Shown: in pieces, positions 53,252 through 58,934 of the stretch
How positions within the stretch are numbered: the stretch's first letter is position 1
Layout of the letters: each line of letters begins with the position of its first letter
From: Gammaproteobacteria bacterium
GTDB taxonomy: Bacteria; Pseudomonadota; Gammaproteobacteria; Arenicellales; UBA868
Reading direction: 5' to 3'
DNA length: 64,000 nucleotides
NCBI GenBank assembly: GCA_022450155.1
Contig: JAKUQR010000018.1
Location: forward strand, 1-64,000
Notes under the pieces: model-generated
The model's input: only the letters and a program-made list of their open reading frames with translations
The model's database searches: none
What the model was told of the DNA's origin: nothing
Program-made: the position numbers and the translations under genes

Positions 53252-54040
53252 ATGAACACACAGCCGATCAGGATCTGCTATCAGAGTTATGTGGACTACG
53301 AGAACGGAAAGACCTACTGGGACACACTGGGTGCGTACCTGAAAAAAATCACTTATCCTGGTACCACCATCGATATCCGCGGTATCACGCCCTTTGACTC
53401 TTATGCCCACAATTTGGTCGAGATGCGCTGTGCCAGGGAGATGATCTGTAACGCGGTTGCTGCGGAGCGTGAGGGTTACGATGCATTTATCGTCGGGCAC
53501 TTCCAAGATGCGGGACTGTATGAAGCGCGCGCGGTCGTCGATATACCGGTGGTGTCGCTCGGCGAGTCCAGCATGTTGTACAGTTGCCAGCTTGCTCAGC
53601 GTATCGGCGTCGTCACCATCAATACCCGCTTCATCCCGTGGTTCCAGCACCAGATTCGCAAGTATGGGCTGACCGAGCGTATTACGGGCGTTCACGCAAT
53701 GCAGTTCGAGCCAGGTCAGCTGCTCGACGCGATGGGTAATACCCAGAAAACCCTTGAGGCCAAAGCACTGTTCTGTACGCAGGCCGAGCCCCTGGTCGAA
53801 GAGGGTGTGGAGTTGATACTCGCGGGTGGCGGTATTCCCATGCTGCTGTTTGCTGATCAGTTCGGTTTTAACGTTTCGGGTGCACCGGTGGTGAACGGTA
53901 TCGACATTGTTGTGAAAGCGGCCGAAACTGCTGTCTTCTTGCAGCGAGCCAGCGGTCTGGGTGTCAGTCGTGTCGGTGATTACATCAAACCACCAGGCCA
54001 CGTTATCGAAGAATTTCTGAGTCATCCCAAGGGTCTGTAG
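53252..54040 (+). CDS. Asp/Glu/hydantoin racemase-fold protein lacking both catalytic cysteines
   Basis: A 262-residue member of the Asp/Glu/hydantoin racemase superfamily: ICYQSYVDYENGK, a strand AFIVGHFQDAGLYEARAVVDIPVVSLGESS, and a second strand LILAGGGIPMLLFADQ. Hydantoin racemases have a cysteine before the F-x-D-x-G-L motif (ACFxDxGL) and another in the G-C-A/T-x-M position. Here these are histidine (H83) and glycine (about 192-194). Racemisation by two cysteines is therefore unlikely, and another reaction or a binding role is expected. It is the first gene of the five-gene operon after tRNA-Thr, with AAGGACGG upstream of the ATG. Confidence 0.85.
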   Translation: MNTQPIRICYQSYVDYENGKTYWDTLGAYLKKITYPGTTIDIRGITPFDSYAHNLVEMRCAREMICNAVAAEREGYDAFIVGHFQDAGLYEARAVVDIPVVSLGESSMLYSCQLAQRIGVVTINTRFIPWFQHQIRKYGLTERITGVHAMQFEPGQLLDAMGNTQKTLEAKALFCTQAEPLVEEGVELILAGGGIPMLLFADQFGFNVSGAPVVNGIDIVVKAAETAVFLQRASGLGVSRVGDYIKPPGHVIEEFLSHPKGL

Positions 54041-54053
54041 GAATTTCCGTTCA

Positions 54054-55691
54054 ATGGGGTACGTTTTTACCGATACCGACACGGTGTTTGGCACGTTCAG
54101 CAATATGGCTGAGCGCTGGCCGGCGCGTCTGTTTCTCAATGTGCTGCCAGAAACAGCCGCTGCCTATGGGATTGCTGCCGGCGAGACGACTTATGGCCAG
54201 TTACTGGCCGACGTCAAAAGGCTTCGAGTGGCTTACGAAGTGGCAGGCTACCGGGCCGGGGGCCGGGTCATGCTGTTGCTGGAGAGCCGGCCGGGATTTT
54301 TCCAGCACTGGTTTGCACTGAATGCACTCGGGTTGTCGGTCGTTCCTGTTAATCCTGATCTGAAAGCAGCAGAGCTTGGATTTATCGCGGGCCACGCCCA
54401 GCCTTGCCTCGCCGTCGCCGCCGGGTCAGGTATAGAGGACCTGCAGCAGGCAAGCTGCGAGTCGGGTGTCAACTTCCCGGTCATCGCCTCCGACGCGCCG
54501 CTGCCGGCGCCGGCGAATTGTGAACCAGTGATGGACCTGTCGGTCGGGCCCCTGCAGCGTGAATCCGCCATGCTCTACACCTCCGGCACCACGGGTCAGC
54601 CCAAAGGGTGTGTGCTGGCGAACCTTTATTTTCTCCATGCGGGTCGTTGGTATAACGATGCCGGTGGCCTGTGTTCGCTCGCCACTGATGGAGAACGGAT
54701 GATCACGCCGTTGCCGATGTTTCATATGAATGCAATGGCCTGCTCAGTGATGGCAATGGTGATGACAGGTGGCTGTCTGATCGCCCTTGATCGTTTTCAC
54801 CCGTCCAGTTGGTGGGCCAGCGTGCGGGAAAGCCGGGCAACTTGCCTTCATTATCTGGGAGTAATGCTGTCTATCCTGATGCAAGCACCAGCAGCGATGA
54901 CTGACAGGGATCATCAGGTGCGATTTGGATTTGGTGCCGGCGTCGATCCAGGTCTGCATGAGCTATTCGAGAGGCGCTTCGGTTTCCCGCTGATCGAGGC
55001 TTGGGCTATGACCGAGACCGGTGCCGGCGCGGTGATCTGTGCCAATCACGAACCTCGCAAGGTGGGGAAGAACTGTCTGGGGCGTCCTGGTCCTGATGTG
55101 GAGGTGCGCATTGTTGGAGAAGACGGAAAAGAAGCTGGTCCAGATCGCCCCGGCGAACTGCTGGTCCGCCACGCCGGGGTAGACCCGAGGCGGGGTTTCT
55201 TCACCGAGTACTATAAAGATCAGGCGGCGACCGACGCCGCCTGGCAAGGTGGGTGGTTCCACACCGGAGATATAGCGCGGCGGGATGCCGACGGAGATAT
55301 GTTTTTTGTCGACCGCAAAAAGAACGTGATTCGCCGTAGTGGTGAGAACATCATGGCTGTAGAAGTGGAATCCACCCTGATGCGCCATCCGGCGGTGGTC
55401 ACGGCAGGGGTCGCCGGGGTCAGCGATGTGGTTCGGGGCGAGGAGGTGTTCGCCTGTCTGGTCATTAATGGGGACGCTGCAGAAGACCGGCTTCGGGATA
55501 TCGTCAGATGGTGCCTGACCCAGATCGCCTATTACAAGGTGCCTGGTTTCGTTGCCAGTGTTGCTGAATTGCCGCTGACCTCCACGCAGAAGATTCAGCG
55601 CAGTGAGTTGAAAGCCCTGGTAGACCGGCTGCTGGGTGATTCGGCCACTGTAGACACCACGGCCCTGAAGCGTCGTCGAAGTGGATCATGA
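54054..55691 (+). CDS. acyl-CoA ligase, carnitine/crotonobetaine-CoA ligase-like
   Basis: A 545-residue adenylate-forming ligase. Motifs are the P-loop LYTSGTTGQPKGCVLANLYFLHAG, PLPMFHMNAMACSV, EAWAMTETGAG, the hinge WFHTGDIARRDADGDMFFVDRKKNVIRRSGENIMAVEVE, and the C-terminal LTSTQKIQRSEL carrying the catalytic lysine. It resembles CaiC-type and other ATP-dependent acyl-CoA ligases. It would activate the operon's substrate before cleavage by the thiolase-like/DUF35 pair. The thiolase gene overlaps its stop (ATGA). Confidence 0.9.
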   Translation: MGYVFTDTDTVFGTFSNMAERWPARLFLNVLPETAAAYGIAAGETTYGQLLADVKRLRVAYEVAGYRAGGRVMLLLESRPGFFQHWFALNALGLSVVPVNPDLKAAELGFIAGHAQPCLAVAAGSGIEDLQQASCESGVNFPVIASDAPLPAPANCEPVMDLSVGPLQRESAMLYTSGTTGQPKGCVLANLYFLHAGRWYNDAGGLCSLATDGERMITPLPMFHMNAMACSVMAMVMTGGCLIALDRFHPSSWWASVRESRATCLHYLGVMLSILMQAPAAMTDRDHQVRFGFGAGVDPGLHELFERRFGFPLIEAWAMTETGAGAVICANHEPRKVGKNCLGRPGPDVEVRIVGEDGKEAGPDRPGELLVRHAGVDPRRGFFTEYYKDQAATDAAWQGGWFHTGDIARRDADGDMFFVDRKKNVIRRSGENIMAVEVESTLMRHPAVVTAGVAGVSDVVRGEEVFACLVINGDAAEDRLRDIVRWCLTQIAYYKVPGFVASVAELPLTSTQKIQRSELKALVDRLLGDSATVDTTALKRRRSGS

Positions 55692-56872
55692 GACGCCCGA
55701 CAGGGTTTCGTACAGCCTACGACGGGGTCGTCCTGGCGGCACCGGTGACCGTACCTTATCAACGGTTCTCAAAGGAATCGGCTCACCATTGGATCGCGCG
55801 GGCCCTTCGCGGGAGCCTGACCGCAGCCAGGATTTCTCCGACTGAGTTGGACGGGTTCTCTGTTGCCAGTTTTACCTTGTTTCCAGATACTGCTGTAGGA
55901 CTTACGCAGCATCTGGGACTGGCGCCTCGCTGGCTTGATCACATACCTACTGGTGGGGCCAGTGGCATCACGGCTCTGCGCCGCGCGGCGCGGGCAGTCC
56001 AGGCTGGAGACGTCGACGTCGTAGCCTGTGTCGCCGGCGACACCAATCATATCGACAGCTTCCGACGGCTGCTGTCGAGTTTCAGTCGTTTTGCCCAGGA
56101 TGCGTCCTGGCCTTACGGTTCCGGTGGGCCCAACACTAGCTTTGGTCTGTTGACCGATCACTACATGCACGCCTTCGGCGCAACCCGTGAGGACTTTGGT
56201 CGTCTTTGTGTCTCCCAGCGCAGCAATGCCCTGCGTAATCCGCACGCTATCATGAAAGAGCCGTTGACGATGGCTCAATACCTGTCGGCCCGTTTGATTT
56301 CCGACCCGATTGCACTTTATGACTGTGTGATGCCGGTGGCAGGCGCAGAAGCGTTTCTGGTTTTGCGCGAAACCGATGCCGTGGCCCAGGGTCTCCCATT
56401 TGCCTGTATCCGCTCGACCATAGAAAGGCACAATGCCTTCGCTGCTGATCCAGTACAGATGCGCGGTGGCTGGGCAGTGGATGTTGATGAGCTTTACGGA
56501 ATGGCACAGGCAGCCCCCACTGATGTCGATCTCGTGCAGACCTATGACGATTACCCGGTCATCACGATGATGCAGATTGAGGATCTTGGCTTTTGTGAAA
56601 AAGGCGAGGCCCCTGCATTCGTCCGCCAGCGGGACCTGACGATCGACGGGGATTTCCCGCACAATACCTCTGGTGGTCAATTGTCCGCTGGGCAGGCCGG
56701 TGCGGCAGGCGGTTATCTCGGATTGGTCGAGGCGATCCGACAGGTGACGGGAATGGCCGGCCCCACCCAGGTAGCGGACGCAAAGCTGGCACTGGTGTCT
56801 GGTTTCGGCATGATTAACTACGACCGCGGCGTCTGTTCGGGTGCGGTGATGATCTCGGGAGGTAGCTCATGA
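55688..56872 (+). CDS. thiolase-like protein lacking the nucleophilic cysteine (SCP-x/Ltp2-like)
   Basis: A 394-residue thiolase-superfamily protein. The usual nucleophile motif C-A-S-G is replaced by GGASG (about 89-93), so the acyl-enzyme cysteine is absent. The C-terminal part has FPHNTSGGQLSAGQAGAAGG in place of N-x-H-G-G...S-x-G-H, so the second catalytic region is also altered. Ltp2 of steroid side-chain breakdown is a cysteine-less thiolase fold that works with a DUF35 partner as a retro-aldolase. The next gene here encodes a DUF35 domain, so an aldol-type C-C cleavage of a CoA thioester is a reasonable guess. Start and stop overlap the neighbouring genes by four bases. Confidence 0.85.
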   Translation: MRRPTGFRTAYDGVVLAAPVTVPYQRFSKESAHHWIARALRGSLTAARISPTELDGFSVASFTLFPDTAVGLTQHLGLAPRWLDHIPTGGASGITALRRAARAVQAGDVDVVACVAGDTNHIDSFRRLLSSFSRFAQDASWPYGSGGPNTSFGLLTDHYMHAFGATREDFGRLCVSQRSNALRNPHAIMKEPLTMAQYLSARLISDPIALYDCVMPVAGAEAFLVLRETDAVAQGLPFACIRSTIERHNAFAADPVQMRGGWAVDVDELYGMAQAAPTDVDLVQTYDDYPVITMMQIEDLGFCEKGEAPAFVRQRDLTIDGDFPHNTSGGQLSAGQAGAAGGYLGLVEAIRQVTGMAGPTQVADAKLALVSGFGMINYDRGVCSGAVMISGGSS

Positions 56873-58122
56873 CTACGCCGATCAGTCCACCGGCCAGAAA
56901 GAATCCTCAGAAGCGTACCCGTGTGCCGGTCGTGCCGCCGGATACGCGTAGCCGCGCCGCGCTTGGACTGTCGGTGGCAGCTGCACGGGGGCGATTTATG
57001 CTGCAGGTCTGCACAGAGTGTTCAGCCATCCAGTACCCACCGCGGGACGCCTGTTCAAGCTGCCTGTCGGTAGACCTTGAATGGCAAGTCGTCTCGAACC
57101 GGGGCCGGCTGGTCGCCGAGACCGTCATTCGCACCAGCACACACGTTTATTTCCGTGAACGTACCCCGTGGCGGGTCGGTACCGTGCAACTGGATTGCGG
57201 CCCGTCGATGATCTGTCATGTTCATGGGGACTGTGAGTCCCAAGGAAATGTCCGCATGATTAACCGCCTTGACAAGTCTGGTCACGGTGTCCTGTTTGCC
57301 CTGCCCGAGAAGGAGATACCAGCTATGGAAGATGATCCCCAACTGCGCGAACTGACCTGCAGCCCGAAGTTTCGACGCATACTGATTACAGATGCACGCA
57401 GCGAAAGCGGCCAGGCCCTGGCTAGGGCCTTCTCCACGGCCGATGCCGCCCTCGTCTTCGCCGGTGAGGCGGAAAGCTGGCGCCACTGGCCCGAACGGGA
57501 CAGCCTCAAGGAGATCGACAACGTCGAACTCGTACCGCTGGACGTGAGTGACACACAGTCCGTCGAGGAACTGTGCGGTGAGATCGGCGGCAAGGTCGAT
57601 ATCCTGGTCAACAATGCGCGGTTTGTCCGGCCGGGTGGGGTAATGGACGGGGGCGACCTGGTATTCGCACAGCAGGAAATGGAGGTGAACTGTCTGGGGT
57701 TGATGCGCCTTGCCCAGGCTTTTGGTCCGGTAATGCGCGGGCGCGGTGCCGATGGTGTCAACAGTGCCACCGCCTGGGTGAATATCCTGTCGATCTATGC
57801 CTACTGCAACCTACCGCAGTTTGGCGTCTATTCGGCCTCCAGCGCGGCAGCGCATTCGCTTTCACAGTGTCTGCGATCGGAAATGCGTACCGGTGGTGTG
57901 CGGGTGATGAATGTTTATACTGGCCCGACCGAAGACGAATGGCACCAGCCGTTGCCGCCACCAAAAGTCACGGCGTCGAAACTCGCCAGTGCGGTGGTCG
58001 AAGGCCTGCAGGATGGGCTGGAGGAGGTCTATGTCGGTGACTTGGCGAAGGACCTCATCGATCGCTGGAGCGCTGAACCCAAGCTCCTGGAACTGGAAAT
58101 GACGCGACAGGGAGGTGGTTGA
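56869..58122 (+). CDS. fusion of DUF35 Zn-ribbon/OB-fold domain with a degenerate SDR domain
   Basis: A 417-residue two-part protein. Residues 30-160 are a DUF35-type acyl-CoA-binding module: rubredoxin-like zinc ribbon with C48, C51, C62 and C65 (CTEC...CSSC), then an OB strand region (GRLVAETVIRTSTHVYFRERTPWRVGTVQLD). Residues 168-400 resemble an SDR: Rossmann strand ILITDARSESGQALARAF, VDILVNNAR, VNILSIYAY and YSASSAAAHSLSQ. In the active-site Y-x-x-x-K the lysine is serine (Y321 to S325), and the cofactor glycine motif TGxxxGxG is imperfect. DUF35 proteins pair with thiolase-like enzymes (BbsA/BbsB, ChsH2/Ltp2). The SDR part may be structural or catalytically altered. Confidence 0.85.
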   Translation: MTTPISPPARKNPQKRTRVPVVPPDTRSRAALGLSVAAARGRFMLQVCTECSAIQYPPRDACSSCLSVDLEWQVVSNRGRLVAETVIRTSTHVYFRERTPWRVGTVQLDCGPSMICHVHGDCESQGNVRMINRLDKSGHGVLFALPEKEIPAMEDDPQLRELTCSPKFRRILITDARSESGQALARAFSTADAALVFAGEAESWRHWPERDSLKEIDNVELVPLDVSDTQSVEELCGEIGGKVDILVNNARFVRPGGVMDGGDLVFAQQEMEVNCLGLMRLAQAFGPVMRGRGADGVNSATAWVNILSIYAYCNLPQFGVYSASSAAAHSLSQCLRSEMRTGGVRVMNVYTGPTEDEWHQPLPPPKVTASKLASAVVEGLQDGLEEVYVGDLAKDLIDRWSAEPKLLELEMTRQGGG

Positions 58123-58124
58123 GA

Positions 58125-58934
58125 ATGACGGTAACCAATAGCCAGGATAATCACGCGCTGACCAGCCTGGCGTCAGCCATGGCCAATGGCGAAGTCGTGA
58201 CGATCGATCTCACCCACACGCTGGATCCTGATTTTCCCGTGATCATCTTGCCGCCGGAATTCGGTCAGTGTGCCCGGTTCCGCATGGAGGAGATCTCGGC
58301 CTACGATCACCGTGGTCCGGCCTGGAAGTGGCACAATTTTTCCTGCTGCGAGCACACTGGCACACATTTTGATGCGCCTATTCACTGGATTTCAGGCCGG
58401 GACCTGCCGAACAATAGTGTCGACGAGATCCCGGTTGAGCGGTTCATCGGTGCGGCCTGCGTCATCGACTGTTCTGAAGGTGCGGCCCGGGACGACGACT
58501 TCGAACTGACGCCCGAAGTGATCGAGGCCTGGGAGGCCGATCACGGCAGAATTCCGCCAGACTGTTGGGTGCTGATGCGCACGGACTGGTCGAAACGCTC
58601 CGGGGCAGCTTATCTCAATATGCGTGACGACGGGGCGCATTCTCCAGGGCCATCGCCGGAGGGTATTCGCTTGCTGGTGGAGCAGCGGGACATCCGCGGG
58701 TTCGGCGTAGAGACCGTGGGTACCGATGCCGGTCAGGGGCAGCACTACACCCCACCGTTTCCGGCCCACTACACGCTTCACGGTAACAACAAGTACGGCC
58801 TGCAGTGTCTAAACAATTTGGATCTTCTGCCCCCTGTCGGAGCAGTCATTATCGCGACGCCGCTCAAGATCAAGAACGGAACAGGGAGCCCACTTCGGGT
58901 GTTGGCACTGGTGCCGCGGAGTCACGCCGTATAA
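58125..58934 (+). CDS. cyclase family protein, kynurenine formamidase-like metal-dependent hydrolase
   Basis: A 269-residue protein of the KynB/cyclase superfamily. The metal-binding motif H-x-G-T-H-x-D-x-P-x-H is intact in CEHTGTHFDAPIHWI (about 73-88), and VLMRTDWSKRSG and GFGVETVGTDAGQG are later family blocks. Members hydrolyse formamides, as in kynurenine breakdown, or cyclic amides and isatin. GGGAGGTGG upstream of the ATG at 58125 fixes the start. It closes the operon and may act on the product of the thiolase-like/DUF35 pair. Confidence 0.87.
   Translation: MTVTNSQDNHALTSLASAMANGEVVTIDLTHTLDPDFPVIILPPEFGQCARFRMEEISAYDHRGPAWKWHNFSCCEHTGTHFDAPIHWISGRDLPNNSVDEIPVERFIGAACVIDCSEGAARDDDFELTPEVIEAWEADHGRIPPDCWVLMRTDWSKRSGAAYLNMRDDGAHSPGPSPEGIRLLVEQRDIRGFGVETVGTDAGQGQHYTPPFPAHYTLHGNNKYGLQCLNNLDLLPPVGAVIIATPLKIKNGTGSPLRVLALVPRSHAV

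Follow-up and report, generated by a model that had tools for sequence, protein, structure and literature searches.

The window, i.e., the whole stretch of 64,000 nucleotides that was analysed (contig JAKUQR010000018.1 of assembly GCA_022450155.1, Gammaproteobacteria), contains a gene cluster with the following genes and features.

53252–54040, forward strand: Asp/Glu/hydantoin racemase family gene, first in the cluster (PF01177, E = 2e-24)
54054–55691, forward strand: iadF, acyl-CoA ligase with AMP-binding domains, thought to activate dioxindole-3-acetate (DOAA)
55688–56872, forward strand: iadG, thiolase-fold protein without the nucleophilic Cys and a proposed retro-aldolase; CtSal (9MYR) is its best solved relative
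55949–55966, forward strand: T88-GGAS-G93 of IadG, the thiolase nucleophile site with Gly for Cys; 84 IadG proteins have GG here in their common variants
56543–56554, forward strand: YDDY of IadG (residues 286–289), at the place of YDCY in CtSal and of YDHF in TcLtp2; present in 84 of 84 IadG proteins
56869–58122, forward strand: iadH, ORF of 417 aa, in which a putative pseudo-SDR follows a DUF35 zinc ribbon and OB fold
56977–57243, forward strand: DUF35 part of IadH (zinc ribbon C48, C51, C62, C65 and OB fold; Pfam zf-ChsH2 and OB_ChsH2_C), proposed IadG-binding part
57361–58119, forward strand: putative pseudo-SDR domain of IadH, residues 165–417; structural match to 5U4S, dN/dS 0.073
57388–57414, forward strand: altered glycine-rich loop TDARSESGQ; first Gly gone in 93 of 93 fusions, Asp in 87
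57610–57621, forward strand: altered NNAG motif, NNAR; Gly retained in 1 of 93 fusions
57829–57843, forward strand: altered catalytic motif YSASS (Y321, S325); YxxxK complete in 7 of 93 fusions
58119–58934, forward strand: iadI, predicted isatin hydrolase; listed start TTG at 58119, ATG at 58125 likelier

Gene order and the window genome

Since the gene order matches that of the iad locus, the window gene is identified, by synteny, as iadH of a locus for degradation of the auxin IAA: it lies between iadG, whose 3' end overlaps its start by 4 bases, and iadI, with iadF upstream. In Ruegeria pomeroyi DSS-3 the order is reductase, Rieske alpha subunit, beta subunit, AMP-binding protein, thiolase, fusion, cyclase and SDR; judged by gene order and protein family, this is iadC-D-E-F-G-H-I-J of the Variovorax IAA-degradation locus (PMC12633357). 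Across 87 loci the partners were IadG (84), IadI (81), IadF (77), IadJ (68) and IadD (64). The identity of the Variovorax IadH with the fusion is deduced from gene order and from relatives of the same family; the nearest relatives seen, from Xenophilus (L105) and Pseudacidovorax (L095), carry TFSASK, VTDG and NNAE. Racemases 65–71% identical to that of the window were found in or near six other iad loci (L065, L093, L097, L099, L174 and L177).

Within the window genome, racemase-iadF-G-H-I are present in the window, and orthologues of iadA and iadB are on another contig (L186:6197–9881, contig C9), where they are annotated as indolepyruvate ferredoxin oxidoreductase; IadA is 64% identical. Isatinate is a 2-oxo acid, and the products of iadA and iadB could therefore convert isatinate to anthraniloyl-CoA. 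Unlike in the Variovorax iad locus, iadDE were not recognised in this assembly, which is 95.5% complete (best IadD match 33%, in the N-terminal part and away from the cluster), nor was an orthologue of iadJ (best match 38%, likewise away from the cluster). The organism's point of entry into the pathway may be DOAA or a related oxindole; alternatively, other oxidation enzymes may be used. The 3.2-Mb genome gave 23 matches to Rieske-type oxygenases and 56 to SDRs, which points to an organism able to degrade a variety of ring compounds.

Domains and altered motifs of IadH

The Pfam matches of IadH, all above the cut-off, were zf-ChsH2 (residues 37–70), OB_ChsH2_C (72–125) and adh_short (171–358, E = 2.5e-21). 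The initial annotation had described the ORF, whose boundaries are exactly 56869–58122, as a DUF35 zinc-ribbon protein fused to an SDR-like domain, with YSASS in place of YxxxK, an altered glycine-rich loop and intact zinc cysteines, and this description was borne out in full. The SDR half reads TDARSESG for TGxxxGxG, NNAR for NNAG and YSASS for YxxxK; both the YxxxK pair and the cofactor motifs of an active SDR are thus missing from the window protein, and the catalytic serine is retained as S308. The DUF35 half shows the CxxC...CxxC zinc ribbon followed by the OB fold, and by sequence it matches the DUF35 of ChsH2 (6OK1_B, E = 3.5e-5), the archaeal thiolase/HMG-CoA synthase complex (6ESQ) and CtShy (9MYR).

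An AlphaFold2 model of IadH, made with 60 homologues, reached a pLDDT of 90.9 and a pTM of 0.90. In the structure search that had been recommended as a check, the SDR half superposed on 5U4S, an SDR whose solved structure contains NADP, with Z 33.2 and an rmsd of 1.5 across 237 residues, as expected for a Rossmann SDR fold; the matches of this search were SDRs, the DUF35 half being identified by sequence only.

The fusion family

Full-length homologues occur in a genome of the same genus (96%) and in other gammaproteobacteria (52% and 33%). Alpha-, Beta- and Gammaproteobacteria together supplied 80 genome contigs with such a gene, and Roseibium, Sulfitobacter, Ruegeria and others carry it on plasmids. 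Chance or a frame error is ruled out by this full-length conservation from Alpha- to Gammaproteobacteria. Between iadH and its 96% homologue dN/dS was 0.084 for the whole gene, with 0.073 for its SDR half; this strong purifying selection rules out a decaying pseudogene. Viral carriage was rejected, as no relative was found among viral contigs.

In the family set of 93 aligned full-length DUF35-SDR fusions, all four zinc cysteines are present throughout and a canonical SDR site occurs in none. The first glycine of the loop is missing from every member, and the most consistent changes are TG to TD (87 of 93) and NNAG to NNA(R/E/D) (85 of 93), the NNAG glycine being lost in 92. The lysine of YxxxK is kept in 26 fusions; its position is otherwise held by N (22), Q (21), E (11), S (8) or others (5), histidine being among the replacements. 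Tyrosine is found in 18 and phenylalanine in 60, whereas the catalytic serine corresponding to S308 is retained in 89. An internal control was provided by IadJ, a true SDR of the same loci, in which Tyr, Lys, the three loop glycines and the NAG glycine are present in 72 of 72 sequences. Since none of the fusions is canonical and all IadJ proteins of the same loci are, the loss of motifs is more than chance. Likewise, 14 standalone outgroup SDRs all have the first glycine, the NAG glycine and the lysine. When the motif columns were left out, the fusions formed one group against the standalone SDRs in the tree (SH-aLRT 91, not starred), on which two changes were required for Lys and thirteen for Tyr.

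In four loci (L006, L007, L010 and L013) a standalone-type SDR of the 5U4S kind shares one open frame of 540–624 aa with an OppF/DppF-like ABC transporter ATPase; the YxxxK motif of these frames is LCASK, with Tyr gone and Lys kept.

Loss of motifs together with purifying selection implies that the SDR domain is maintained, though not for classical SDR chemistry. Very probably, the SDR half of IadH is a conserved pseudoenzyme which lacks redox chemistry, and membership of the family in the "SDR family NAD(P)-dependent oxidoreductases", as it is widely annotated, appears unlikely. The 26 fusions with Lys and the 7 with a complete YxxxK are points against this reading. The initial annotation had named homologues with an intact lysine, or a neighbouring lysine reaching the active site, as grounds for giving up its interpretation. 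The former exist, though none of them has the first glycine; as to the latter, no replacement lysine is specific to members without the original one, K167, K242, K366 and K405 being equally frequent in those which have it. Its suggestion to look for conservation of the serine at the lysine position led to a negative answer, as the counts above show. It had also considered that the Rossmann domain might bind a nucleotide without redox activity, in a regulatory or scaffolding fusion; a non-redox, structural role agrees with the present data, but retained nucleotide binding is unsupported, since change is most consistent at the very residues by which NAD(P) is held.

Several residues, i.e., D175, W204, W358 and an arginine (R254 / R292), hardly vary among the fusions, and most standalone SDRs lack them. 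Judged by SDR topology several of them lie beside the cleft, and with the retained Ser308 they could speak for a former cofactor cleft that is reused for a non-redox ligand, e.g., the ADP moiety of CoA, isatin or an effector. They might just as well fill the cleft or belong to an interface, and reuse of the cleft is thought doubtful.

IadG and IadI

The initial annotation had likened the fusion to DUF35-thiolase complexes, which was apt. The gene iadH adjoins iadG, which encodes a thiolase-fold protein. It did not contain the identity of the gene as iadH, the Cys-less, aldolase-like nature of the thiolase partner, or isatin hydrolase as the product of the next gene. Among solved structures IadG is closest to CtSal (9MYR, E = 4.6e-49, 170.6 bits), followed by TcLtp2 (120.7), the archaeal thiolase (90.6), BbsB (86.7) and SCP2 thiolase (66.6). 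It has the thiolase fold without the nucleophilic cysteine, as in proteins of the Sal/Ltp2 type; CtSal likewise has Gly at this site, and the motif Tyr is the catalytic base in CtSal and TcLtp2 (PMC12329534). This tyrosine is retained in the YDDY of IadG. The third residue, Asp as opposed to Cys in CtSal and His in TcLtp2, is new and is a point against the retro-aldolase reading. By analogy with these enzymes, IadG is proposed to be a retro-aldolase bound to the DUF35 part of IadH.

IadI matches isatin hydrolase A (LaIHA, 5NNB) with 473 bits. The metal motif HxG[T/A]HxDxPxH that marks isatin hydrolases is HTGTHFDAPIHW in IadI and is conserved in 79 of 79 sequences. In Roseibium aggregatum IAM 12614, iadI directly follows iadH, and its product agrees at every one of 257 residues with the crystallised isatin hydrolase A, the enzyme which produces isatinate (PMC6117287). 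Isatin must therefore arise upstream of IadI.

Proposed function of IadH

The following scheme is suggested. IadF would convert DOAA to its CoA thioester; IadG would cleave DOAA-CoA, a beta-hydroxyacyl-CoA, to isatin and acetyl-CoA in a retro-aldol reaction; and IadI would hydrolyse isatin to isatinate. IadH would bind IadG via its DUF35 half, and its SDR half, having lost NAD(P) redox chemistry, would most likely serve assembly, either by docking a neighbouring enzyme or by self-association. IadH is thus probably the DUF35 subunit of the IadG retro-aldolase, with a non-redox pseudoenzyme as its SDR half. The retro-aldol step, the binding of IadG to IadH, the absence of redox activity and the assembly role are what we infer; the domain composition, the family-wide motif loss, selection, synteny, the identity of IadI and the motifs of IadG were established by the present analysis. 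Cleavage of DOAA-CoA in this manner is favoured because isatin is needed upstream of IadI and would be formed without a redox step. Family-wide loss of active-site and cofactor residues makes it more likely that IadH is a non-redox partner of the adjoining C-C-cleaving enzyme. DUF35 binds the aldolase in CtShy-CtSal and in ChsH2-Ltp2, and ChsH2 consists of DUF35 and a dead MaoC domain (PMC11321319). IadH resembles an SDR version of this architecture.

In Variovorax each of iadF, G, H and I is required for the formation of anthranilate (PMC12633357). The same 2025 preprint reported a compound C8H7NO3 which was shown not to be N-formylanthranilate (PMC12633357); the formula is that of isatinate. 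It also reported C8H7NO2, the formula of dioxindole, in an iadI mutant and called the step reductive (PMC12633357), which counts against retro-aldol cleavage. In our reading, this compound may be isatin that other enzymes have reduced. On the assignment of the preprint, IadH would be a working dehydrogenase or reductase whose active site is unusual and which acts with IadG to take off the acetyl side chain reductively, giving dioxindole. Accumulation of C8H7NO2, retention of Ser308 in 89 and of a complete YxxxK in 7 of the 93 fusions, and the solution of the close relative 5U4S with NADP would fit; but a canonical site occurs in no fusion, Phe mostly stands in for Tyr, every fusion lacks the first Gly and all except one the NNAG Gly, a reduced product would need re-oxidation since IadI is an isatin hydrolase, and in three iad-like loci the gene at the iadH position encodes no SDR domain. 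A working reductase is thus regarded as quite improbable.

Those three loci (L033, L036 and L178) possess iadD, E, G and J with a bare DUF35. Its occurrence with the same type of IadG suggests that the SDR half is dispensable for the chemistry itself; the IadG proteins of these loci are more distant (52% in L036), and the loci may serve another substrate than the iad fusions.

As to what the SDR half is kept for, SDRs commonly form oligomers, and IadJ, an active SDR, is fully intact and present in 68 of 87 loci. The pseudo-SDR half might pair with it and couple the preceding dehydrogenation to the aldolase, for which the dead MaoC of ChsH2 together with ChsH1 is a precedent (PMC11321319). Yet the window genome retains the SDR half under selection without a recognisable iadJ, IadJ is still present in the loci with bare DUF35, and IadJ and the SDR half of IadH are far apart on the tree, so that pairing of the two is considered rather unlikely.

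Docking of IadI by the pseudo-SDR half, with isatin handed over directly from IadG, may tentatively be entertained. In 76 of 80 loci iadI follows immediately 3' of iadH; isatin is reactive; and intermediates were reported as undetected and probably channelled (PMC12633357). Gene order alone does not show contact, however: L178 combines a bare DUF35 with iadI, L035, with the most degenerate fusion, has iadI about 14 kb away, and in L089 iadI is absent nearby. Coupling of the SDR domain to iadI is thus not strict, as L178 demonstrates. A combined proposal, that the DUF35-fused pseudo-SDR organises an auxin side-chain retro-aldolase and hands isatin to isatin hydrolase, the old cofactor cleft being reused for a non-redox ligand, for example CoA or isatin, is speculative and on balance unlikely; if true, an aldolase would have recruited a dehydrogenase fold as its module for docking or for holding a ligand.

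Comparison with known systems

The iad pathway serves auxin removal by root bacteria and is being engineered into plant-growth strains. The departure of the acetyl side chain is unsettled, and retro-aldol cleavage to isatin and acetyl-CoA would be a different, directly testable step. The gene family is already known by name, IadG as ketothiolase and IadH as alcohol dehydrogenase by annotation alone in the 2025 preprint (PMC12633357); the papers searched neither read IadH as a dead SDR nor take IadG-IadH for a retro-aldolase. In this search, which covered few subscription papers and is thus weak evidence of novelty, no paper was found that links isatin hydrolase to iad or describes a DUF35-SDR fusion, and dioxindole-3-acetyl-CoA was named nowhere.

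IadH of Variovorax paradoxus CL14 has the same place in the order F-G-H-I and the same neighbours (acyl-CoA ligase, thiolase and PF04199 hydrolase; PMC12633357). It was annotated as an alcohol dehydrogenase and thought to be reductive, whereas it is read here as DUF35 with a probably dead SDR. LaIHA of Labrenzia/Roseibium aggregatum (PMC6117287) corresponds to IadI of the iad locus type, the protein of R. aggregatum being identical; the isatin hydrolase papers found draw no connection to iadH or the iad operon, to which the crystallised enzyme is now tied.

BbsA/BbsB benzoylsuccinyl-CoA thiolase and the archaeal DUF35-thiolase-HMG-CoA synthase complex share with IadH-IadG a DUF35 zinc protein and a thiolase-fold partner, but their DUF35 has no fused SDR, and IadG is nearer to CtSal than to BbsB or the archaeal thiolase by the scores given above. 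Standalone SDRs of the NF006118/5U4S kind are the nearest relatives of the SDR half in sequence and fold; the aligned ones keep TG, NNAG and Lys and are without DUF35. Further parallels are ChsH2/Ltp2, with a dead MaoC-DUF35, and CtShy/CtSal, with an active one (PMC11321319, PMC12329534). Each joins DUF35 to another enzyme domain and has, next to it, an aldolase of the thiolase fold that lacks the Cys and bears a YDxF/Y motif, as IadG does; and the fused domain of ChsH2 is catalytically dead, as that of IadH would be (PMC11321319). The differences are that the fused domain is MaoC and not SDR, that the IadG motif is YDDY, and that the substrate is a steroid as compared with, probably, an oxindole acyl-CoA for IadG. 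The known fusion partners of DUF35 would thus come to include a dead SDR.
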